A stretch of 64,000 bases of DNA from Chelativorans sp. Marseille-P2723 (GTDB taxonomy: Bacteria; Pseudomonadota; Alphaproteobacteria; Rhizobiales; Rhizobiaceae). Numbering within the stretch: the first letter of the stretch is position 1; each line of letters starts with the position of its first letter. The notes under the pieces are model-generated. The model saw only the letters and a program-made list of their open reading frames with translations. It was not told the origin of the DNA and did no database searches. Made by a program: the position numbers and the translations under genes. This document shows, piece after piece, positions 14,884 through 53,121 of the stretch. The DNA lies in NCBI RefSeq assembly GCF_902809845.1, contig NZ_CADDWI010000008.1, forward strand, positions 806,001 through 870,000, read 5' to 3'.

Positions 14884-15638
14884 AGGCCCTGGCAGATGAG
14901 GAGGTACTGCAGCTCTTCGAGGAGGGCACCTACGAGATCGTGCCGCACGATGCCATGCGCCGCACCATCGCCCGCCGCATGAGCCAGTCCAAGGCCACCG
15001 TGCCGCATTTTTACCTCACCGTTGATTGCCGCATCGACGCGCTGCTTGGCCTGCGCAAGCAGCTCAACGAGGCGGCGCCGCTGACGCAGGGCGAAGCGGG
15101 CGAGGAGCCTGCCTACAGGCTGTCCGTCAACGACATGATCATCAAGGCGATGGCGCTTGCACTGAAGGCCGTTCCCGACGCCAATGTCTCATGGAGCGAG
15201 GCCGGGATGGTCAAGCACCGCCATGCCGATGTGGGCGTGGCCGTTGCCATTCCCGGCGGGCTGATCACGCCCATCGTGCGGCGGGCGGAGGAGAAGACCC
15301 TGTCGGTCATCTCCAACGAGATGAAGGACATGGCCGCGCGGGCCCGTAACAGGCGGCTGAAGCCGGAAGAGTACCAGGGCGGCACGACGGCGGTGTCCAA
15401 TCTGGGCATGTATGGCATCAGGGACTTTGCCGCCATCATCAACCCGCCGCATGCGACGATCCTTGCCGTCGGGGCGGGCGAGCCAAGGCCGGTGGTCGAG
15501 GATGGCCATGTCAAGGTGGCGACGGTGATGACGGTGACGCTGTCCACGGACCACCGGGCGGTGGACGGTGCACTCGGCGCCGAACTGCTCTCCGCCTTCA
15601 GGCACCTCATCGAAAACCCCATGGCTATGCTGGTGTAG
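14790..15638 (+). CDS. Dihydrolipoyl acyltransferase E2, C-terminal catalytic fragment
   Basis: A 282-residue frame opening at GTG 14790, with linker then the complete acyltransferase core (about 55-282). It includes PHDAMRRTIARRMSQSKATV, SVNDMIIKAMALALKAVPDAN, AIPGGLITPIVRRAEEK, and the catalytic signature DHRAVDGALGAE with active histidine and aspartate. Expression as a separate protein would need reinitiation at the GTGA overlap; no strong ribosome site precedes it. Otherwise it is the broken 3' half of one E2 gene. Codon use is more GC-rich than in the N-terminal half, as if taken from a paralogue. Confidence 0.85.
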   Translation: MKADVEKALEAGTAAPAPAIEAAEAKAQPAPQALADEEVLQLFEEGTYEIVPHDAMRRTIARRMSQSKATVPHFYLTVDCRIDALLGLRKQLNEAAPLTQGEAGEEPAYRLSVNDMIIKAMALALKAVPDANVSWSEAGMVKHRHADVGVAVAIPGGLITPIVRRAEEKTLSVISNEMKDMAARARNRRLKPEEYQGGTTAVSNLGMYGIRDFAAIINPPHATILAVGAGEPRPVVEDGHVKVATVMTVTLSTDHRAVDGALGAELLSAFRHLIENPMAMLV

Positions 15639-15800
15639 GGTTCTGATGGTCTTATGGACGAACGATACTAGGCGAATCGCTGCCGTGACTGAATGCCTGC
15701 TTCTGGCCCTTTCCCGGCGCGCCGTTAAGGTAATTCCGGTTGCGAACCGGCTCGACTTGGTGTCCGATCACTCCATGACCATTCACAAGGAGGGTTAGCC

Positions 15801-16154
15801 ATGCAAGCCATGCCCACGCTGGTGAAGAGCCTGATCGATACTACGCCCGGCGATATGAGGATGCTGCTGCAGCGGTTCCGCGATCATGCCCTGGAGGAGC
15901 GGATGTCGCCTGTGGACACTGAATTGCTGATGGCCGATCTGGGCTATGACAGCATCCAGGCATTCTGCGCGGACGCCGACTTGCCCGAGCATGTCGCCGA
16001 ACGTTGGAGCCGCTTTGGAATCTCCTTTGAGATGCGCCAGGTGCTGACCTTCATGCTTCGCCAGCGCCAGCGTATACGCAAAGCCGTAACCGATTTCGAA
16101 AGCGTCACCCATGCAGGTCTAGACGATTTCATGCAGGAGAAAGGCGTGATCTGA
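15801..16154 (+). CDS. Small protein of unknown function after the dehydrogenase genes
   Basis: A 117-residue soluble, helical protein, not recognised. A very good AAGGAGG precedes the ATG, which supports it as a real gene. It has two parts: an acidic N-terminal half (SPVDTELLMADLGYDSIQAFCADADLPEHVAERW) and a basic C-terminal helix (FMLRQRQRIRKAVTDFE). It lies 162 bp after E2 and could be co-transcribed. It carries no cysteine pairs or known motif. Confidence 0.7.
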   Translation: MQAMPTLVKSLIDTTPGDMRMLLQRFRDHALEERMSPVDTELLMADLGYDSIQAFCADADLPEHVAERWSRFGISFEMRQVLTFMLRQRQRIRKAVTDFESVTHAGLDDFMQEKGVI

Positions 16155-16468
16155 CAGTCGGCGCTATTCGGCCTTTCCGGGCGGAAGAGGCCATTCGCGC
16201 CGTGATGTGGAAATATGCGGTTTTCTGGAATGTGCGATATGTGGGGGGTAGTCTGTCGTCATACTGTCATTCATGAATGTTTTGTGAGCGCTGCGGGCGG
16301 GTTTTCCTCCCGCTCGCAAGCCACTCGCCGTTCTTTTGTTGTTGACAGAGAACAAATGATCATTTCCTTTGGTGACGTGCACGCCAGTCAAAAAGGGCAT
16401 GCCGCTGCAGAGGAGGGTGAACGTCATGCCAAGGCAGCGTTCGCCGCAAACAGGGTAGGAGTAGCCTT
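16155..16468. other. Regulatory intergenic region before the ABC importer operon
   Basis: This 314-bp gap contains a Pho box (16253-16270), the palindrome CATTCATGAATG just after it, TTGACA at 16342, and the 12-bp palindrome AAATGATCATTT (16354-16365). No convincing gene lies here; the 85-codon open frame has no ribosome site or family resemblance. The layout suggests dual control by phosphate and possibly by the SorC regulator. Confidence 0.6.
16253..16270 (+). promoter_or_regulatory. Pho box (PhoB-binding site)
   Basis: CTGTCGT (16253-16259), spacer CATA, CTGTCAT (16264-16270): two 7-base direct repeats 11 bp apart, with one mismatch to the rhizobial consensus CTGTCAT-N4-CTGTCAT. PhoB bound here would activate transcription toward the ABC importer genes during phosphate shortage. 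It is about 200 bp before the first ATG, longer than usual, so a long leader is implied. Confidence 0.72.
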
Positions 16469-17443
16469 ATGAAGACAATCATTGGCAAGGTCGCACTCGG
16501 TCTCGCCGCGGCCACCTTCATCACCACATCCGCGCATGCGCTGTTGCTTTACACCTCTCAGCCGGAGGCTGATGCGACGCAGACGGTGGAAGCGTTCAAG
16601 CAGGCAAATCCCGGCGTCGAGGTCGAGATCTTCCGATCCGGTACGAGCGATCTGCTGAGCAAGCTCGCTGCGGAGATTGCAGCCGGCAATCCGCAGCCGG
16701 ACGTGCTGCTCATTGCCGATGCCGTCAGCATGGAACTGCTGAAGGCCGACGGGCATCTGATGCCTTATCCGGAAGCTGACGTCTCAGGCCTGGAGGAGAC
16801 TGCCTACGATGCCGACCGCACCTATTTCGGCAGCAAGCTGATCACCACCGGCATAGCCTACAACACCGCAGCTCCCGAGAAGCCTGAGAGCTGGAAGGAT
16901 TTGACGGGCGAAGCCTACAAGAATCTTATCGTCATGCCGAGCCCGCTCTATTCCGGTGCTGCGGCCTATCTTCTTGCCGGCTTCACCAACCGCGACGATC
17001 TCGGCTGGGATTACTTCGAGAGCCTGAAGGAGAACGGGCTGGTCACCGTCCAGGGCAATGGCGCGGTCCTGCGTTCTGTTGCCACGGGTGAGAAGGCCTA
17101 CGGCATTCTGGTCGACTTCATGGCGATGAACGCCAAGAATGAAGGATCCCCAATCGGGTTCGTCTTCCCGGAGGAAGGGGTACCGGCAGTGACCGAGCCG
17201 GTCGCTATCATGTCCTCCGCCAAGAACGTCGAGGAGGCGAAGAAGTTCGTTGACTTCATCCTTTCGGACGAAGGCCAAAAACTGGCGCTGGAGCAAGGCT
17301 ACCTGCCTGCCAATCCGTCGGTTGGTCAGCCGGAGTGGCTTCCTGAAGGCACGCAGGTCAATGTGATGCAGATTGATATCGACGCGGTGGTCAAGACGAT
17401 CGACGCGGACAAGGAACGTTTCTCGCAGATCTTCGGCGGCTGA
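16469..17443 (+). CDS. ABC importer periplasmic substrate-binding protein (AfuA/Fbp-like)
   Basis: A 324-residue binding protein with a cleavable signal peptide (about 1-24, cut after TTSAHA). It belongs to the iron(III)/sugar-phosphate/phosphonate-type cluster: LLLYTSQPEADATQTVEAF near the mature N terminus, then GNPQPDVLLIADAVSMELL and YPEEGVPA-like FPEEGVPAVTEPVAI. The tyrosine pair used by ferric-binding relatives to hold iron is not evident. With the Pho box upstream and phosphoesterase-like genes downstream, an organophosphate ligand is more likely than iron. The ligand is an inference. Confidence 0.88.
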   Translation: MKTIIGKVALGLAAATFITTSAHALLLYTSQPEADATQTVEAFKQANPGVEVEIFRSGTSDLLSKLAAEIAAGNPQPDVLLIADAVSMELLKADGHLMPYPEADVSGLEETAYDADRTYFGSKLITTGIAYNTAAPEKPESWKDLTGEAYKNLIVMPSPLYSGAAAYLLAGFTNRDDLGWDYFESLKENGLVTVQGNGAVLRSVATGEKAYGILVDFMAMNAKNEGSPIGFVFPEEGVPAVTEPVAIMSSAKNVEEAKKFVDFILSDEGQKLALEQGYLPANPSVGQPEWLPEGTQVNVMQIDIDAVVKTIDADKERFSQIFGG

Positions 17444-17465
17444 TAGTTCCAGAGTATCCGACAAC

Positions 17466-19169
17466 ATGCTGCAAAGCCTGAAAATGCGTCAGGGCCAGGA
17501 AATGGCCCTGACGACGGTGATTGCCGCTGTCGCGGTCGTCCTTTCCGTCCTGCCGATGTCTCGGCTTCTGCTGGAGGTCGTCTTTCCGGGCGGGGAGCTT
17601 TCCGTGGCGGCCATAGAGGCCGGACTTGCCAATCCTGCAACCTGGCGGGCCACCCGCAATACGCTTGTCGTAGGCATAGGCGGGACTGTTCTTGCCACGC
17701 TGGCTGGCACCGCGGTTGCGCTTCTGGTGGCGCTTACCAATGTGCGCGGGCGCCGCTTGTTCGTTCTGTGTTTTGTCTTGCCGCTGATGATCGCCCCTCA
17801 AATCACTGCGCTGGCCTGGCTGCAGCTATTTGGGCCGGCAAGCCCGTTCCTGAAGCTCTTCGGCATCGCTCCTCCGATAGGCACTCCCAACCCGCTCTAT
17901 TCGCCGGCCGGCATCGTCCTGCTTCTGGCGGTCCAGTACGCACCTCTCGTCTTTCTCATGGTGAGGGCGGGCCTCCGCCGCCTTCCGCGCGAACTGGTTG
18001 AGGCTGCCCAGAGCGGCGGCGCAGGTCCGTTCACCGTGTTATGGACGGTAATTCTGCCGTTGATGACACCTTCCATCGTCGCAGCCGCGGCGCTGACCTT
18101 CGTTTCCTGCGTCGGCAATTTCGGCATCCCGGCCTTCCTTGGCATCCCTGCCAACTACCTGGTCTTGCCAACCCTGATCTATCAGCGCCTCGCAGGTGCC
18201 GGCCCTTCCGTTCTGCCGGAAGTGGCTTTCCTTTCGGTGCTGATCGGCGTCATCGCCATGGCTGGTATCGTGGCGCAGGACATTATCGCTCGCAGGCGCG
18301 ATTTCCGCATCGGCTCCACCTCGCTGCCGCCGCAGCCTTACAATCTCGGTCGCTGGCGCGTTGTGGCCGAAACCGTGATGTGGCTCGTCATCGTCGCCAT
18401 TCTGGTGCTGCCACTTTTTGGTTTGGTGCTTACCTCGCTCATCAGCGCCTTTGGCGTGCCGGTGACCTGGGAGACGGTAAGCATTCGTAATTACACTTTC
18501 GTTCTCTTCGAGCATGCCGCCGTTACCCGTTCATTCAGGAACAGCATCTTTCTGTCTCTTGCGGCGGCAGGTTTTGCGGTCCTTGTGGCGGTGCCGCTTG
18601 GCTATATGGTTGCCTGGGGCAGGAGCCGCTGGACAAAGGCGCTTAATCTGGCCGTAGAGCTGCCCTACGCTCTCCCCGGCGTCGTTATGGCAATCGCCGC
18701 CCTGTTAATCTTCCTGCGCCCGATACCGCTTACCGGGATCCATATCTACAATACGGTTTGGATCATCCTTTACGCTTATCTCGCGCGCTTTCTGGTGCTG
18801 GCGCTGAGGCCGACGGTAAGCGGCTATCATCAAATCGACAGGGCTCTGGAGGAGGCAGCGCAGATCACCGGTGCTGGGCTGCTGATGCGGCTCCGTACCA
18901 TTATCTTCCCGCTTGTGGCTCCGGCTGCTTTGGCGGGCGCGCTTCTCATCTTCATGACGGCCCTGAGTGAGCTTACCGTTTCAGCGCTCATCTGGTCCTC
19001 TGGCGCCGAGACGGTTGGCGTCATGATCTTCTCATTCGAGCAGGGCGGTAGATCGAGCGAGGCGGCTGCCATTTCAGTGATCGCCGTTGCGGTGACGGCA
19101 GCGTTGATGCTCCTGGCCGACCTGTTTGCAAAAAAACTTCCAAGCGGGGTTCTCCCATGGCGGGATTGA
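17466..19169 (+). CDS. ABC importer fused permease (two transmembrane domains)
   Basis: A 567-residue FbpB-type permease with two complete inner-membrane domains in one chain, each with the EAA-type loop that meets the ATPase (EAAQSGGAGPFTVLWTVILP in the first half; EEAAQITGAGLLMRLRTIIFP in the second). About twelve hydrophobic segments are visible. I chose the ATG at 17466, 22 bp after the binding protein; the earlier frame from 17373 overlaps it without a ribosome site. It forms the channel for the AfuA-like ligand. Confidence 0.92.
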   Translation: MLQSLKMRQGQEMALTTVIAAVAVVLSVLPMSRLLLEVVFPGGELSVAAIEAGLANPATWRATRNTLVVGIGGTVLATLAGTAVALLVALTNVRGRRLFVLCFVLPLMIAPQITALAWLQLFGPASPFLKLFGIAPPIGTPNPLYSPAGIVLLLAVQYAPLVFLMVRAGLRRLPRELVEAAQSGGAGPFTVLWTVILPLMTPSIVAAAALTFVSCVGNFGIPAFLGIPANYLVLPTLIYQRLAGAGPSVLPEVAFLSVLIGVIAMAGIVAQDIIARRRDFRIGSTSLPPQPYNLGRWRVVAETVMWLVIVAILVLPLFGLVLTSLISAFGVPVTWETVSIRNYTFVLFEHAAVTRSFRNSIFLSLAAAGFAVLVAVPLGYMVAWGRSRWTKALNLAVELPYALPGVVMAIAALLIFLRPIPLTGIHIYNTVWIILYAYLARFLVLALRPTVSGYHQIDRALEEAAQITGAGLLMRLRTIIFPLVAPAALAGALLIFMTALSELTVSALIWSSGAETVGVMIFSFEQGGRSSEAAAISVIAVAVTAALMLLADLFAKKLPSGVLPWRD

Positions 19170-20236
19170 CGATCGACAATGTAACCAAAAGCTTCGGCGA
19201 TCTTGACGCGGTCAGGAAAGTTTCGATCGATGTCCAGAACGGCGAGTTCCTTGCCGTTCTCGGGCCTTCCGGCTGCGGCAAGACGACGATGCTGCGTCTG
19301 ATTGCAGGTTTTGAGCAGGTGACGGACGGGCGTATTCTCATCGGGGATAAGGTTGTTTCCGACAGGAATATGCATGTGCCGCCGGAGCGCAGGCGGGTGG
19401 GCATCGTCTTTCAGAATTATGCGCTTTGGCCCCATATGACGGTAGCGGAAAATATCGCCTATCCGCTGAAGGTCGCAAAGGTTGGAAAGGCGGAGCGGGA
19501 AAAGCGCGTCGAGGATGCGCTGGCGCTTGTTAACATGCAGGGCTACGGCGACCGCAGGCCGGCAAATCTTTCCGGCGGGCAGCGTCAGCGGGTGGCGCTC
19601 GCGCGTTGTCTCGTTGCCGCACCGTCTCTGGTGCTCTTCGACGAGCCGCTTGCCAATCTCGACGTACATCTGCGCGCCTCAATGGAGGATGAGTTCGCCG
19701 CCTTTCATAAGCGCACTGGAACAACGATCGTCTATATTACCCACGATCAGACGGAAGCCATGGCGCTTGCAGACCGCATCGCGGTTATGGACCAGGGACG
19801 TCTTATCCAGCTTGCCACGCCACGCGAACTGTTCCGCGAGCCTGCCAATGCAATGGTGGCATCATTCATCGCCAACGGCATCGTGTTGCCGGCGGATGTG
19901 CTGACGGCGGAGGAGAGCGGCCATTGCCGCGTGCGGGTGCTGGGGACGGAGTTCGTCGTGCGTTGCCAGCCCGGGGAGAAGCCGCGGCAGAAGGCGCTCA
20001 TCTGCTGCCGCTCCGCCGATATAGAGCCGGCTGCTCCCGGCGAACCCGGCTTTGAGGGCACGGTCACCCGCAGCGTCTATCGCGGCGGGGTAGGGCGCAT
20101 TGAGGTGGCACCGACCGACGCGCCGGACTGCTCGTTGCATTTCGACCAGAAGGAACCCGTAACGCTTGAGCCGGGCATGACAGCCCGGCTCAGGATCGGT
20201 TCCGGCTGGCTTATTCCCGAGGAGAACGCTGGCTGA
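19157..20236 (+). CDS. ABC importer ATP-binding protein
   Basis: A 359-residue ATPase of the FbpC/PotA class. Walker A is GPSGCGKTT (about 36-44), the signature is LSGGQRQRVALARCL, Walker B is LVLFDEPLANLD, and the switch histidine is in YITHDQTEAM. The C-terminal 110 residues form a TOBE-type domain. It overlaps the permease by 13 bases and the next gene by one, so the five genes from 16469 are one transcription unit. Confidence 0.94.
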   Translation: MAGLTIDNVTKSFGDLDAVRKVSIDVQNGEFLAVLGPSGCGKTTMLRLIAGFEQVTDGRILIGDKVVSDRNMHVPPERRRVGIVFQNYALWPHMTVAENIAYPLKVAKVGKAEREKRVEDALALVNMQGYGDRRPANLSGGQRQRVALARCLVAAPSLVLFDEPLANLDVHLRASMEDEFAAFHKRTGTTIVYITHDQTEAMALADRIAVMDQGRLIQLATPRELFREPANAMVASFIANGIVLPADVLTAEESGHCRVRVLGTEFVVRCQPGEKPRQKALICCRSADIEPAAPGEPGFEGTVTRSVYRGGVGRIEVAPTDAPDCSLHFDQKEPVTLEPGMTARLRIGSGWLIPEENAG

Positions 20237-21396
20237 TGCAGATTGGACTGCTGGGCGGCTTCGCAGAGAAGGGGCGGACAAGCGTTGGCATTTGCACCGG
20301 CGGCTGCTCCATCATGCTCGACGCTGGCATCAAGGTTGGCGCGGCGGGAGCGGAATATTATCCTGCGCTCGATCGCTCCCCGGGCGAAATCGATGCGCTC
20401 TTTATCACGCACGCTCATGAGGATCATGTCGGGGCGCTGGGCTGGCTTCTTGCAGGCGGCTTTCGCGGCCCCGTTTTCATGACGAAGGAAACGGCGCAGG
20501 AGGCGCCCGCCACGCTTACTCAATATGCGCTTGAGGAGCACGCAGACCTTTTCACCACCGCACAGGTTGAGATCTTTCAGCCGGGTGACAGGCTCGAATT
20601 TGGCGACATTACCGCGGATACTGGTCTTTCCGGCCATGTGGCGGGCGGCGTGTGGTTTTGTGTGCGGCACGAGGATGGGGTCGTCTCCTATTGCGGTGAT
20701 GTCGTGCCCGACAGTGCAGTCTTCCGGATGGACGAGGTGCCTGCCTGCGATTTGCTGCTGCTCGACGCCTCCTATGGTGCCGATAGGATAACGGGAAGAG
20801 ACCGCGCCCGATCCATTGCCGCCTGGATCAAGGAGCACCCCAGGGGCTGCCTGTTGCCCACCCCGCTTTCCGGCCGCTCTCTCGAACTTATCGCCAGCAT
20901 TCCTGGACCGTTCGCAATACATCACGAGATGCGACAGGGTCTTGAACTTCAACTTACCTCCGAAGACGCCTTCAGGCCCGGCATGCGCGATATGGTGGCG
21001 ACAAAGCTTTCAAGTGCCATGGACTGGCGGGAGGATGAAGAACTGCCTGCCATGCCGCTCATCTGCCACGACGGAATGGGGGCAAGCGGGCCTTCGTCCC
21101 GTCTCCTGCCCCGGGCTGATTCTGCCGGTTATCCCATACTCCTTACAGGTCATCTGCCTGCAGGCTCCCCTGGCGCCAGACTGCAGGAGCACGGGCGGGC
21201 AGGCTGGATTCGCATGCCGACACACCCCACGCTGACGGGCAACAAGGCTATCTGGGAAGCGGCCGGGTGCCCGGCCGCCATCGGTCATTCCTGTCCAGTT
21301 AATGGACTGGAGGAACTTTCTCGCGAAATTCCTGCCCTGCGCCCGCAGTGCGCAACTGGAGGGACGCTGCATCTGGAAAAAGGAGCACTGCGGTGA
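20236..21396 (+). CDS. Metallo-beta-lactamase-fold hydrolase, beta-CASP-like
   Basis: A 386-residue cytoplasmic protein. The zinc motif HxHxDH is His59-x-His61-x-Asp63-His64 (THAHEDHVGALG), and GHVAGGVWF and YCGDVVPD supply later metal ligands. The remaining part (TPLSGRSLELI, LLTGHLPAGSPGARL, HSCPVNG) resembles the beta-CASP insert and tail of RNase J or CPSF-like nucleases, so it may be a phosphodiesterase or nuclease. It overlaps the ATPase gene by one base and SurE by four. In a Pho-regulated importer operon it could hydrolyse an imported phosphodiester. The substrate is unknown. Confidence 0.8.
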   Translation: MQIGLLGGFAEKGRTSVGICTGGCSIMLDAGIKVGAAGAEYYPALDRSPGEIDALFITHAHEDHVGALGWLLAGGFRGPVFMTKETAQEAPATLTQYALEEHADLFTTAQVEIFQPGDRLEFGDITADTGLSGHVAGGVWFCVRHEDGVVSYCGDVVPDSAVFRMDEVPACDLLLLDASYGADRITGRDRARSIAAWIKEHPRGCLLPTPLSGRSLELIASIPGPFAIHHEMRQGLELQLTSEDAFRPGMRDMVATKLSSAMDWREDEELPAMPLICHDGMGASGPSSRLLPRADSAGYPILLTGHLPAGSPGARLQEHGRAGWIRMPTHPTLTGNKAIWEAAGCPAAIGHSCPVNGLEELSREIPALRPQCATGGTLHLEKGALR

Positions 21397-22142
21397 GAAT
21401 CCTCGTTTGCAATGACGATGGCTTCGACGCGCCTGGCCTTGCAAGGCTGACAGAGGTTGCGCGCAGCCTCAGCGATGATGTCTTTGTTGTGGCACCCGAC
21501 GGCAAGCGTACCGCTGGCGGCACCTCGATCACGATTGCAAGGCCGCTTACGATGCTGCGCAGGGGCGAAAGGCGCTATTCCTGTTCCGGCACGCCGGCCG
21601 ACTGTGTAGTTACAGCGATGACATGGCTGTTTGCGGAGGACAGGAAGCCTGACCTGGTGCTTTCCGGCATCAATGACGGGCGGAATGTTGCCGAGGATGT
21701 GGCTTATTCTGGCACGAACGGCATTGCGCGCGAGGCAACGTTCTGGGGGGTGCCGGCGATTGCCTTTTCCCGCGTGAAGAACGCGGCCGAAATGCCCACA
21801 GACATTGAATGGCTTCGCGCCTTCATCGTGTTACTGTGGCAAAATCGGGCGGAATGGGCCCATGAAGGTCATTGGCTGAATGTCAACCTGCCCCATTCGC
21901 TTCCCGCCTCGATCCGCCAGCCGCGCATCGGTCGCGACAAGATCGGCCGGAGTTGCGAGGTGCTTGAAGAGGAAGGGGAGAAAACGGTTCTGGTGATCCC
22001 GCGCGGGCGCGAGCACGCAACGTCCCCGGGTGACGAGAATGCTCTGATCGATGCCGGTCATGTTTGTGTGAACCGGCTCAACTGGTTTGGCGAGACGCCT
22101 CTTGCCGAACCCTTTCTCGCGGGGCTTGCAGCCTTGTCATAG
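21393..22142 (+). CDS. surE: 5'-nucleotidase SurE
   Basis: A 249-residue SurE phosphatase. The metal site is NDDG at residues 7-10, followed by VVAPDGKRTAGGTSIT, SGTPADCV, LSGINDGRNVAEDVAYSGTNGIAREA and a C-terminal basic stretch. SurE releases phosphate from nucleoside monophosphates and short polyphosphates. The GTG at 21393 overlaps the previous stop and has AAAAGGAG. SurE usually sits with pcm and nlpD; here it closes a Pho-box operon, so it may be a second copy specialised for phosphate scavenging. Confidence 0.9.
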   Translation: MRILVCNDDGFDAPGLARLTEVARSLSDDVFVVAPDGKRTAGGTSITIARPLTMLRRGERRYSCSGTPADCVVTAMTWLFAEDRKPDLVLSGINDGRNVAEDVAYSGTNGIAREATFWGVPAIAFSRVKNAAEMPTDIEWLRAFIVLLWQNRAEWAHEGHWLNVNLPHSLPASIRQPRIGRDKIGRSCEVLEEEGEKTVLVIPRGREHATSPGDENALIDAGHVCVNRLNWFGETPLAEPFLAGLAALS

Positions 22143-22222
22143 AGCCGACCCAGCATCGCGAGATTTGTGAAAGCCGTGCGTACATCACTGCATTGGCGCC
22201 CGGGCAGGAGGACTGCCGTGCT

Positions 22223-23716
22223 TCAGGTGATGGAAAGCGTCCGCCGGACGGCATTGCGCCATCCGGCAAGCTTCGCGTTACGGATCCTCGCCTCCATTTG
22301 CGGCTCGAAGCGTCGCTCCAAAGCCCAACTTTCTACGAACTTCTCCTTTCCGGGCCACAGGCCGGCTCGTGAGGCCGCAAGCCACGCCACACCTAGTGCT
22401 GTAGTTTCAAGGATGGTCGGCCGATCCACCGGCGCGTCAAGAATGTCGGCGAGCCGTTGCATGGTCCAGTCCGAGGCGACCATTCCTCCATCGACCCGCA
22501 ACACCGTCTCCCGGAACAAGCCCCTGCAATCCTTTCGCATGGCCAGAAGCAGATCATGCGTCTGGTAGGCCACGGACTCGAGCGCTGCGCGGGTAAACTC
22601 TGCCGGCCCGGAGTTGCGCGTGAGGCCATAAATGGCGCCGCGCGCCTCGGCATCCCAATAGGGTGCGCCGAGTCCGACGAAGGCCGGTACGAGGTAGACA
22701 TTCTGGCTCTCATCCGCTCGGGCGGCGAGCTCGTCGCTTTCGGCTGCCCTACTGATCACGCCCAGACCATCGCGCAGCCACTGCACGGCAGCCCCGGCAA
22801 TGAAGATCGAGCCTTCCAGCGCATACGTTGTCTTGCCATCGAGGCGATAGGCTATGGTCGAAAGCAGCCGGTTTTTTGAGCGCACAAGCCGCTCGCCTGT
22901 GTTTAGCACGGCGAAGCATCCGGTACCGTAGGTGGATTTCAGCATCCCCGGCTTGAAGCAAGCCTGCCCGATGGTGGCTGCCTGCTGGTCGCCGGCAACG
23001 CCAAGGATTGGAATTTCGGCGCCGAGAAGCTTCTTCGCGGTCACCCCAAAATCGGCCGCGCAGTCCAGCACCTCCGGCAGAATTGCCGCCGGTACGCCGA
23101 GAATGCCGAGAAGCTCATCGTCCCAAATGTTTCTCTCGATATTGTAGAGCAGTGTGCGCGAGGCATTCGTCGCGTCGGTGACGTGCCGCGCACCACCCGT
23201 CAGCCGCCAGATAAGGAAGGAGTCGACGGTGCCGGCAAGAAGCTCGCCATTCTCTGCACGGCGCCGCGCACCCTTCACCCCGTCCAAAATCCACGCGAAC
23301 TTCGTTCCGGAGAAATAGGGATCCAGAAGCAGCCCCGTTTTCCTCGTGAATTTTGCCTCCAAACCCTGCTTGCGGAACCTTGCACAGAGCGGCTCCGTGC
23401 GGCGATCCTGCCATACGATGGCGCGGTGAATGGGACGGCCCGTCTGCTTCTCCCAGATGATTGCCGTCTCCCGCTGGTTGGTGATGCCGATTGCCGCGAT
23501 GTCGCCGGCCGAAAGCGCAGCTTTTTCGAGCGCAGCCCTGATGGTCGTCAGGACGCTCTTCCAGATATCTTCCGGATCGTGCTCCACCCAACCGGAGGCG
23601 GGATAATGCTGGGGAAATTCCTTCTGCCCGAGGGCGATGATCTGCGCTCTTTCGTCAAAGATGATGGCGCGGCTTGATGTGGTCCCCTGGTCGATCGCGA
23701 GGACGTATCGACGCAT
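22223..23716 (-). CDS. glpK: Glycerol kinase
   Basis: A 497-residue FGGY kinase that makes sn-glycerol 3-phosphate from glycerol and ATP. It has the phosphate-binding loop DQGTTSSR (9-16), [36 protein letters not shown], and the second ATPase signature [11 protein letters not shown]. The start at 23716 has AAGGAGGGAGC; the longer frame lies within glpD. It follows glpD by 29 bp on the same strand. No facilitator or glp repressor gene is adjacent. Confidence 0.96.
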
Positions 23717-23745
23717 GCTCCCTCCTTCCCTGGAATTCCCCGAAC

Positions 23746-25290
23746 CTATAGCGCCTCGCCCCGTGGCTCCCACCCTCCATGCGACGGGATGGCGGCTTGC
23801 ATAAAGGCTTCCAGTGCTTCTGCCTCGTTCTGCGCAAGCTGTAGTCCGCTCTTGGTGCGACGCCACAGCACATCCTCCGCTGTGTACGCCCATTCTTGTT
23901 CGATCAGGTAGCGGACTTCTGCCTCATAAAGATCGGCACCGAAATGGCGGCCGAGATCTTCGGCCGATTGCGCCTCACCAAGCGTCTCCGAAGCGCGCGT
24001 ACCGTAACGGCGCACCAGACGGCGGGCATGGGCGGCACTCAAAAACGGGTAGCTGGCGGAAAGGCGGGATACCTCCTCCTCATAAGCATTGACGGGGAAC
24101 CCGCCCGGCAAGGGGGCGTCGGCTGTCCAGGAGGCGCCTTTCCGGCCGATCAGGCTTCCCACTTTTTCGAGCGCGGCTTCCGCGAGTCGCCGATAGGTGG
24201 TGATTTTGCCGCCGAAGACGTTGAGAAGCGGTGCTTCACCACCTCCGCCCTCCGCCTCCAGAACATAGTCGCGGGTAGCCTCCTGGGCCTTGCTCGCCCC
24301 ATCGTCAAGCAGCGGGCGGACGGCAGCGTAAGTCCAGACGATGTTAGCGCGATGCACCGCACCGGCGAAATACTCATTCGCCGAGCGGCAGAGATAATCG
24401 ATTTCCGCATCGCTGATCGCAGCGTCCGCGGGATCGCCCTCATAGTCCTGGTCGGTGGTGCCGATGAGGGTAAAATCGTCCTCATAGGGAATGGCGAATA
24501 CTATGCGGCCGTCACTATTCTGGAAGATATAAGCCAGAGGGCCCTCATATATTTTCCGGACGACGATATGGCTGCCCTTTACCAGCCGCACATTATGGGC
24601 GTTGCCACGTCCCAAGACGGTGCCAAGCACATTGTCGATCCAAGGGCCAGCCGCATTGACGAGAAGCCTTGCCCTTACCTCTTGCTCGGTACCCCTGGCC
24701 TGATCGCGCAGTTTAACGCGCCATCCATCGCCGTCGCGTTGTGCGCTGACAACTTCTGTGCGCGAGGCGATCACGGCACCGCGATCAGCGGCATCCCGCG
24801 CGTTGAGCACGACCAGGCGGGCATCATCCACTCCGCAGTCCGAATACTCGAAGGCGCGCAAGTAGAACGGCTTTAAGGGGCGGCCAGCAGGATCGCGCCG
24901 CAGGTCGACCGTACGTGTCTTCGGCAGAAGCTTGCGTCCGCCGATATGATCGTAGAGAAAGAGCCCGAGCCGCAGAAGCCATGTAGGGCGAAGGCCGCGA
25001 TGATGCGGCAGCACGAATCGCATAGGCCAGATGACGTGCGGTGCATTGCGCCATAGCACTTCCCTTTCCATCAGCGACTCTCGCACGAGGCGGAACTCGT
25101 AGAATTCCAGATAGCGCAGACCGCCATGGACAAGCTTGGTGGAGCCGGAAGAGGTCCCACCGGCCAGATCGCCTTTTTCGGCTAGGAAAACACGATACCC
25201 GCGACCTGCCGCATCGCGTGCAATGCCGCAGCCATTGATCCCGCCTCCTATGATGAGGATGTCGTAGACGGGATCTTCACTCAAGGCCAT
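23746..25290 (-). CDS. glpD: Aerobic glycerol-3-phosphate dehydrogenase
   Basis: A 514-residue FAD enzyme that oxidises glycerol 3-phosphate to dihydroxyacetone phosphate and feeds electrons to ubiquinone at the inner membrane. The FAD-binding motif [19 protein letters not shown] is at residues 13-31, followed by [42 protein letters not shown] and [11 protein letters not shown]. The C-terminal domain is complete. It is first in the glpDK unit. Confidence 0.96.
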
Positions 25291-52425: not shown

Positions 52426-53121
52426 ATGCGTGTTCTGCTCATAGAAGACGATAGTGCGACCGCACAGAGCATCGAACTGATGCTGAAATCGGAAAGCTTC
52501 AATGTCTATACGACGGATCTCGGGGAGGAGGGCGTCGATCTAGGAAAGCTTTACGACTACGATATCATCCTCCTCGATCTCAACCTTCCTGACATGTCAG
52601 GTTACGAGGTCCTGAGGACGCTGCGTCTGTCCAAGGTCAAGACGCCAATTCTGATCCTGTCTGGCATGGCCGGCATCGAAGACAAGGTAAGGGGGCTCGG
52701 CTTCGGGGCTGATGACTACATGACCAAGCCCTTCCATAAAGACGAGCTTATCGCCCGCATTCACGCCATCGTCCGCCGCTCCAAGGGTCATGCCCAATCT
52801 ATCATCACCACGGGTGATCTTGTCGTCAATCTCGATGCCAAGACGGTCGAGGTCGCAGGCCAGCGGGTGCATCTGACCGGCAAGGAATACCAGATGCTGG
52901 AGCTCCTTTCGCTCAGAAAGGGCACTACTCTTACCAAGGAGATGTTCCTGAACCATCTTTATGGCGGGATGGACGAGCCGGAACTGAAGATCATCGACGT
53001 CTTCATCTGCAAGCTGCGAAAGAAGCTTGATGCTGCCTCCGGCGGACAAAGCTTTATCGAGACCGTCTGGGGACGCGGCTACGTTCTGCGTGAGCCGGAA
53101 GAAGTCCGGGAAAGCGCCTGA
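52426..53121 (+). CDS. ctrA: Cell-cycle master response regulator CtrA
   Basis: A 231-residue OmpR-type regulator. The receiver domain (1-118) has the phosphoacceptor Asp51 ([19 protein letters not shown]) and [19 protein letters not shown]. The winged-helix domain (125-228) has [20 protein letters not shown]. CtrA controls division, flagella and DNA replication in alphaproteobacteria; phosphate reaches it through ChpT, encoded 0.6 kb away. The sequence is nearly that of other Hyphomicrobiales CtrA proteins. A terminator follows. Confidence 0.97.

Follow-up and report, generated by a model that had tools for sequence, protein, structure and literature searches.

An importer operon with two hydrolases

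We analysed a 64,000-nucleotide stretch of the genome of Chelativorans sp. Marseille-P2723 (contig NZ_CADDWI010000008.1, positions 806,001 to 870,000; hereafter the window), in which a predicted PhoB site (Pho box) precedes an operon for an ATP-binding cassette (ABC) importer and two hydrolases. The operon consists of five genes on the plus strand, which encode a periplasmic substrate-binding protein of the SBP_bac_6/8 families (16469-17443, 324 amino acids), a fused ABC permease with two BPD_transp_1 stretches (17466-19169, 567 amino acids), an ABC ATPase (19157-20236, 359 amino acids), a beta-CASP family hydrolase of the metallo-beta-lactamase fold, predicted to be a phosphodiesterase (20236-21396, 386 amino acids), and a SurE-family nucleotidase with a GTG start, predicted to be a phosphomonoesterase (21393-22142, 249 amino acids). 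The start codons of the permease and SurE genes were chosen by us, the list of open reading frames having earlier starts. The box and the five genes reported in the first-pass annotation of this DNA were confirmed, and its description of five tightly overlapping genes holds for three of the four junctions (overlaps of 13, 1 and 4 bases) but not for the binding protein and permease genes, which are separated by a 22-base gap. By eye, the N-terminus of the binding protein resembles a signal peptide ending in AHA, and no signal peptide is visible in the hydrolase or SurE.

The SurE protein passed the cut-off of the Pfam SurE domain (161.1 bits vs. 22.1) and just missed that of the NCBIfam model TIGR00087 (135.0 vs. 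135.1 bits), with the other SurE equivalog models missed by wider margins. It is a divergent second copy, the genome also encoding a SurE that passes the NCBIfam cut-offs. The catalytic residues of the SurE family, a pair of aspartates, a serine and an asparagine, correspond to D8, D9, S45 and N94, which are invariant in all 13 aligned proteins.

The predicted Pho box

The box, CTGTCGTCATACTGTCAT (16253-16270, plus strand), reads CTGTCGT-N4-CTGTCAT and differs at one position from CTGTCAT-N4-CTGTCAT. It is the sole zero-mismatch site for CTGTCRT-N4-CTGTCAT in the window and the only exact match to this pattern in the 3.77 Mb genome, and an equally good match did not arise in any of 300 shuffled versions of the upstream sequence. 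Weak, 3-mismatch matches in the window carry no meaning, because 5 sites with up to 3 mismatches were seen where 6.6 were expected. When up to 2 mismatches to CTGTCAT-N4-CTGTCAT were allowed, 14 sites were found genome-wide, and the reversed control pattern gave 3. About 75 bases downstream of one of these 14 sites is a PstS-like gene (146.9 bits, missing the NCBIfam cut-off of 206.6), itself 5.6 kb from a PhoB gene above its curated cut-off on the same contig; another site precedes a UgpC-type ATPase gene that is also above its cut-off. Several of the remaining sites look by eye like chance matches in or beside unrelated genes, one neighbour being pyridoxamine-pyruvate transaminase. Thus, both a box before the operon and a PhoB gene in the genome are present, as membership in the Pho regulon implies, and PhoB would be expected to control the operon in vivo.

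We further searched the 250-base upstream regions of 38 of the 50 hydrolase loci described below, for which operon starts are approximate. The best match had at most 2 mismatches in 9 of the 38 regions and at most 3 in 16, compared to 0-1 and at most 4 regions, respectively, for 23 control patterns (reversed, complemented and shuffled half-sites, two of which were identical). In the other 22 regions, the best match has 4 to 6 mismatches, which leaves much of the family without a clear Pho box. An earlier version of this test, on 350-base regions, gave 6 of 34 at up to 2 mismatches and 15 of 34 at up to 3; between the versions, some starts were reset (from 6 to 2 mismatches at L141), near copies were dropped and loci were added. 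The box of the Chelativorans operon ends 198 bases before the first start codon. Of the 15 other operons whose best site has at most 3 mismatches, 13 have a site that ends 45-95 bases before the start used, closer than in the window, and in the remaining two it ends 15 and 165 bases before it. The Pho box proposed in the first-pass annotation is supported by its uniqueness in the genome and by Pho-box-like sites before related operons. On the Enterobacter hormaechei plasmid locus L101, such a site with 2 mismatches lies 45 bases before the start.

A search of 16100-22400 revealed no sigma-70-type promoter, and one of 15600-22600 no Rfam family. In many relatives, a SorC-, LacI- or DeoR/GlpR-type regulator adjoins the operon, and the two SorC-type proteins scanned best matched Bacillus DeoR, below the cut-off. 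These sugar-type regulators suggest that phosphate may not be the sole signal; around the window operon, no SorC-like gene is apparent by eye.

Elsewhere in the window, a 117-amino-acid open reading frame without family assignment (15801-16154, plus strand) lies between pyruvate dehydrogenase genes and the Pho box, genes for glycerol kinase and glycerol-3-phosphate dehydrogenase (22223-25290, minus strand) face the operon, and a response regulator (52426-53088, plus strand, converted coordinates) matches the PhoB model below its cut-off.

Assignment of the hydrolase to the beta-CASP family

Beta-CASP proteins share motifs 1-4 (D, HxHxDH, H and D), motif A (D or E), motif B (H) and motif C (H or V). 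In the hydrolase, the metal motifs comprise D29, H59, H61, D63, H64, H134 and D155, with D177 as motif A and H330 as motif B, and all of these residues are kept in 38 of 38 aligned hydrolases. The candidate for motif C, H351, is present in all 15 rows of clade I, the SurE-associated branch of the hydrolase tree (see below), whereas the other 23 rows have A, L, M or V at this position; hhalign placed it one column off. Given that this candidate motif C histidine is missing outside clade I, the metal site or the chemistry may differ. Comparison of 29 members of the hydrolase family with 16 RNase J-like proteins using hhalign gave a probability of 99.4% (E = 2.7e-21) over 362 columns, extending through the beta-CASP part. 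The closest solved relatives by sequence are CPSF73 and TTHA0252, which also led a fold search with the predicted structure. The model is good only in parts of the N-terminal half (predicted local distance difference test score, pLDDT, of 63), and since the template-modelling score was about 0.45 and the root-mean-square deviation above 10, the fold search backs the family but not the details. Taken together, the metal motifs, motifs A and B, and the profile and fold searches place the hydrolase in the beta-CASP family, as the first-pass annotation had suggested, and the enzyme is predicted to act as a phosphodiesterase.

The beta-CASP ribonucleases TTHA0252, CPSF73 and RNase J thus have family and motifs in common with this hydrolase; they process RNA, however, whereas the hydrolase is the product of an importer-operon gene in 48 of 50 loci. 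PhnP, a cyclic phosphodiesterase of the C-P lyase pathway, likewise belongs to the metallo-beta-lactamase superfamily and serves phosphorus scavenging, the role predicted here, but is not known to be a beta-CASP enzyme.

Distribution of the module and exchange of the phosphatase

In a search of 199 genomes of the same taxonomic family (E <= 1e-20), 16 genomes had a hydrolase match, 10 of them close (51-100% identity) and 6 distant (30-34%). In broader draws, a hydrolase profile (E <= 1e-25) matched 15 of 297 genomes at the level of the order, 4 of 385 at that of the class and 7 of 398 at that of the phylum, where each draw includes the Chelativorans genome and some genomes are common to several draws. 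The module is patchy, given how few genomes match and that, of two genomes of the same genus, G090 carries the hydrolase and G167 does not. The carriers include Aminobacter, Nitratireductor, Phyllobacterium, Pannonibacter, Frigidibacter, Salipiger, Paracoccus, Phaeobacter, Pacificitalea, Azospirillum, Halomonas and Enterobacter. Among the 80 loci kept from a scan of genome contigs, the sole close relative was L018 (50% identity over 379 residues), and the others were RNase J-like by length and motifs. Viral contigs contained no relatives of the binding protein and 7 distant matches to the hydrolase. Comparison of E. coli genomes with the Enterobacter locus yielded 315 partial matches, none covering more than 80% of the locus; the 20 listed were fbpC-type ATPases.

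We compiled 50 hydrolase loci, namely, the window, L018, 34 other genome hits and 14 plasmid records (from overlapping lists of 25 and 68). Locus counts are not independent because several loci are close kin (L099, L106, L107 and L163; L109 and L164; L112 and L113; L098 and L166; L104 and L162; L145, L146 and L150). The binding protein and permease lie alongside the hydrolase in 48 of the 50 loci, the ATPase as well in 46, and a phosphatase is adjacent in 41. In clade I (window, L018, L098-L100, L105-L113, L141, L142, L163, L164 and L166), SurE is present in 19 of 19 loci and the importer in 18 of 19, whereas in clade II (L102, L114, L116-L119, L143, L148, L149 and L151-L155) all 14 loci combine the importer with a dual-specificity-type phosphatase. 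Seven loci have a histidine phosphatase (L101, L103, L115 and L158-L161), to which L160 and L161 add a HAD phosphatase; L165 has a HAD protein alone. None of these four phosphatase types was found in the remaining loci, of which six have the importer (L104, L145-L147, L150 and L162), two have the binding protein and permease without an ATPase of the family (L156 and L157), and one, L144, has neither importer nor phosphatase. In a 38-row hydrolase tree, one 100/100 branch sets the SurE rows apart from all others, another does so for the dual-specificity rows, and the histidine-phosphatase rows need three changes, two of which are forced by starred branches. The locus survey and the tree together indicate that the second enzyme was swapped between unrelated folds, with the importer and the hydrolase mostly constant.

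Some loci have distinctive surroundings. At L110 (1-9822), the hydrolase and SurE genes follow dipeptide/glutathione-type importer genes and a long open reading frame, an exchange of the importer. A PhnE-like gene lies upstream of the importer and hydrolase in all three of L145, L146 and L150, and insertion-sequence genes flank the L101 module on both sides, on a plasmid typed as conjugative. Na/Pi cotransporter genes occur near several clade I operons, in keeping with the scheme proposed below.

The phosphatase partners lean to a nucleotide-type substrate without proving it. SurE proteins are 5'/3'-nucleotidases. All three HAD partners scanned (L160, L161 and L165) exceeded the cut-off of the polynucleotide kinase 3'-phosphatase domain (88, 99 and 110 bits, respectively, vs. 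27.6), and that of L165 matches solved polynucleotide kinases. Of seven dual-specificity partners, one (L143) passed both the DSPc and the PTP-SAK cut-offs and six fell below both; a search against solved structures weakly matched human dual-specificity phosphatases. The histidine phosphatase of L101 is nearest to alpha-ribazole phosphatase, below the cut-off.

The importer and its relatives

The solved relatives of the binding protein are, nearest first, AfuA, 8x1a (an iron-compound-binding protein by name, with about equal score), the pyridoxal-5-phosphate binder P5PA and then ferric-binding proteins, so that AfuA is the best or second-best. Within clade I, the binding protein is 65-76% identical to 11 relatives. 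In AfuA, His205, Asp206 and Glu229 are essential for holding the sugar (PLoS Pathog. 2015, PMC4546632). In a pairwise alignment with our own residue count, these map to V215, D216 and V241, respectively, with a glutamate two residues on at 243; of the phosphate contacts, Ser37 maps to T59, an invariant threonine, and Thr150 to A164. The AfuA-like importer of the first-pass annotation is thus correct in that AfuA is the nearest solved relative, but the sugar-binding triad is not kept, and we rejected orthology to AfuA because only Asp206 is retained in register. Orthology to a 2-aminoethylphosphonate importer was also rejected: the best NCBIfam models were PhnS2 for the binding protein (148.9 of 392.75 bits required) and PhnU2 for the permease (158 of 593.25), and the ATPase reached 309.9 of 457.7 bits for PhnT2, so that all three proteins are far below the cut-offs. 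For the ATPase, UgpC was the second-best model, below its cut-off. The predicted structure of the binding protein, built from a two-row alignment, was unusable (pLDDT 35).

We also examined nine annotated loci that contain importer relatives without, by annotation, the hydrolase. At the end of a divergent operon, L192 carries an SpdA-like 2',3'-cyclic nucleotide phosphodiesterase (244 bits of 400 needed). In L191, a YmdB-type metallophosphoesterase gene follows the ATPase gene in the same orientation, with one short gene between them, and in L195 a metallophosphoesterase gene (best model ApaH-type, below cut-off), also in line with the importer, lies directly upstream, beside PPK2 and CHAD genes. 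L190, which is cut by the end of the record, is near a polyphosphate kinase gene. The ligand of L190, L191 and L195 may differ, given that their binding proteins are 33-37% identical. The annotation of L189, L193, L194, L196 and L197 shows no phosphodiesterase; three proteins of these loci were scanned, two from L189 and one from L196. Genes for HAD and histidine phosphatases lie near L189, and a non-specific nuclease gene near L197.

A proposed scheme for phosphodiester import and cleavage

From gene order, protein families, intact metal-site residues, Pho-box-like sites and the exchange of the phosphatase, all read from the sequences, we infer the following scheme, including PhoB control in vivo, the substrate, and which way and in what order the two hydrolyses proceed. 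Under phosphate shortage, PhoB would bind the box and turn the operon on. In the periplasm, the binding protein would capture a small organic phosphodiester, which the importer would move to the cytoplasm, where the beta-CASP metallo-hydrolase would open the diester to a phosphomonoester. SurE, or the other phosphatases in related modules, would then take the phosphate off the monoester. In the case of a nucleotide-derived diester (for instance, a 2',3'-cyclic nucleotide or an oligonucleotide of very few residues), the products would be nucleoside and phosphate. The core of this scheme, import of a phosphodiester, cleavage inside and release of phosphate, had been suggested in the first-pass annotation and is strengthened by the exchange of phosphatase partners and the Pho-box-like sites of relatives. 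Whatever the diester, the operon probably is a self-contained phosphorus-scavenging module that combines, under PhoB, phosphodiester import, a diesterase and a monoesterase. A nucleotide-type diester appears to be the likeliest class of substrate, a tentative assignment that is hinted at by SurE being a nucleotidase family, the 3'-phosphatase type of the HAD partners, the SpdA-like enzyme of L192 and the metallophosphoesterases of L191 and L195. It is possible, and we suggest it with reserve, that a beta-CASP enzyme was recruited into a PhoB-controlled module in which RNA-derived nucleotides (2',3'-cyclic or short oligonucleotides) enter the cell intact and are then taken apart in the cytoplasm, with the final phosphatase swapped among four unrelated folds.

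Several observations weigh against parts of this interpretation. Beta-CASP enzymes known so far act on nucleic acids, and H351 is confined to clade I; we know of no binding proteins of the present type that carry nucleotides. With respect to the partners, SurE proteins take other phosphoesters too, the cut-off of PTP-SAK, an RNA-repair family, was reached by only one of seven dual-specificity partners, the histidine phosphatases say little on the substrate, and 9 of 50 loci have none of the four phosphatase types. The regulators that adjoin related operons are of the sugar type, and no phosphodiesterase is annotated in five of the nine loci that have importer relatives but lack the hydrolase. 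Nor did a recurrent catabolic neighbour provide a clue to the substrate: no Pfam family (E <= 1e-6) occurred in more than 2 of 104 flanking proteins, which were 103 of 142 listed from 26 loci (L110 excluded whole) plus PhnE of L145, in a scan that passed over, among others, the Na/Pi genes and the regulators already recognised as SorC or LacI type.

Alternative substrates

The same scheme might apply to a glycerol or sugar phosphodiester, in which case the operon would be a counterpart, from other protein families, of the Ugp importer with UgpQ. The sugar-type regulators, which are usual for sugars, are compatible with such a substrate, as are the DeoR/GlpR-family model that best matches the L160 regulator (below cut-off), the UgpC score of the ATPase and the glycerol genes adjoining the operon in the window. 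However, the other loci compared have no glpK or glpD match except for a distant kinase match in L144 (25-26%), and the HAD and SurE partners lean to nucleotides; we consider this substrate rather doubtful, although it is the strongest competitor of a nucleotide-type diester. Less can be said for a phosphomonoester such as the sugar phosphates carried by AfuABC, on which the phosphatase would act directly while the hydrolase does something else. The close relationship to AfuA and the alignment of its Ser37 contact with the invariant Thr59 would fit, but two of the three essential AfuA residues are not kept, and it is hard to see, without a phosphodiesterase role, why all 38 aligned hydrolases should have kept motifs 1-4, A and B, making this alternative unlikely.

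Also improbable is a role in phosphonate use, either as an importer of the type that carries 2-aminoethylphosphonate or as an accessory to the C-P lyase pathway. Apart from PhnS2 and PhnU2 being the best models, phosphonate genes recur in the vicinity: L145 has phnE, a phosphonate-operon protein and phnN (directly upstream), all passing cut-offs, phnCDE is near L099 and L163, and PhnD-type, PhnC and PhnE genes are in L159. This proximity may, however, reflect shared phosphate control only, the PhnS2, PhnU2 and PhnT2 cut-offs were missed by far, and among the genes of the annotated operons none is named phnW, phnX or phnA. Uptake of short polyphosphate, with the enzymes as polyphosphatases, seems highly improbable. 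SurE does act on short polyphosphate, and importer relatives are near CHAD and PPK2 genes in Shinella (L195), polyphosphate kinase, CHAD and Ppx/GppA genes in Thermus (L190), and CYTH and NUDIX genes in Paracoccus (L197), but by annotation these loci lack the hydrolase, binding-protein identity is no more than 33-36% for two of the three, and to our knowledge no beta-CASP enzyme cleaves phosphoanhydrides. Finally, we give almost no credence to a ferric iron importer with unrelated enzymes in its operon: the permease of relatives is annotated as 'iron ABC transporter permease' and ferric-binding proteins, which use a tyrosine pair, appear further down the list of solved relatives of the binding protein, but the nearer ones (AfuA and P5PA) bind phosphorylated small molecules, a comparison by which iron appeared unlikely, and association with phosphatases and Pho boxes has no obvious sense for iron.

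Relation to known systems and implications

The proposed phosphodiester module resembles Ugp with UgpQ in combining Pho-controlled import with intracellular phosphodiester cleavage; the diesterases are unrelated, however, and the Ugp operon is not known to have a dedicated phosphatase. AfuABC provides the nearest solved binding protein, with the phosphate-side contact Ser37 kept here as T59, but its sugar triad is not kept here and the available part of the source mentions no hydrolase partner (PMC4546632). The 2-aminoethylphosphonate importer AepXVW, which occurs with phnWX or phnWAY, has parts of the same broad kind and likewise imports an organic phosphorus compound that is broken down inside, as predicted here, whereas the present operon has a beta-CASP hydrolase and a phosphatase in place of phosphonate-breakdown genes; the P. 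putida copy of AepXVW depends on PhoBR (Nat Commun 2021, PMC8316502). In Sinorhizobium meliloti, SMc04316-SMc04317, predicted iron transport genes with a Pho box, are reported to be strongly induced by phosphate stress (PMC8829014). In agreement with the first-pass annotation, our searches of open-licence PMC papers turned up no named system that combines these genes.

A large pool of phosphorus is believed to exist as dissolved phosphodiesters, which most of the bacterial routes described so far split extracellularly. If correct, the scheme would add an intracellular diester route, in which importers have a built-in diesterase and an exchangeable monoesterase, in an importer-hydrolase family seen in Rhizobiales, Rhodobacterales, Azospirillum, Halomonas and Enterobacter plasmids. 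It would further imply that a beta-CASP enzyme shifted from nucleic-acid processing to nutrition, and would provide a ligand for importers whose permease is annotated by pipelines as iron transport.

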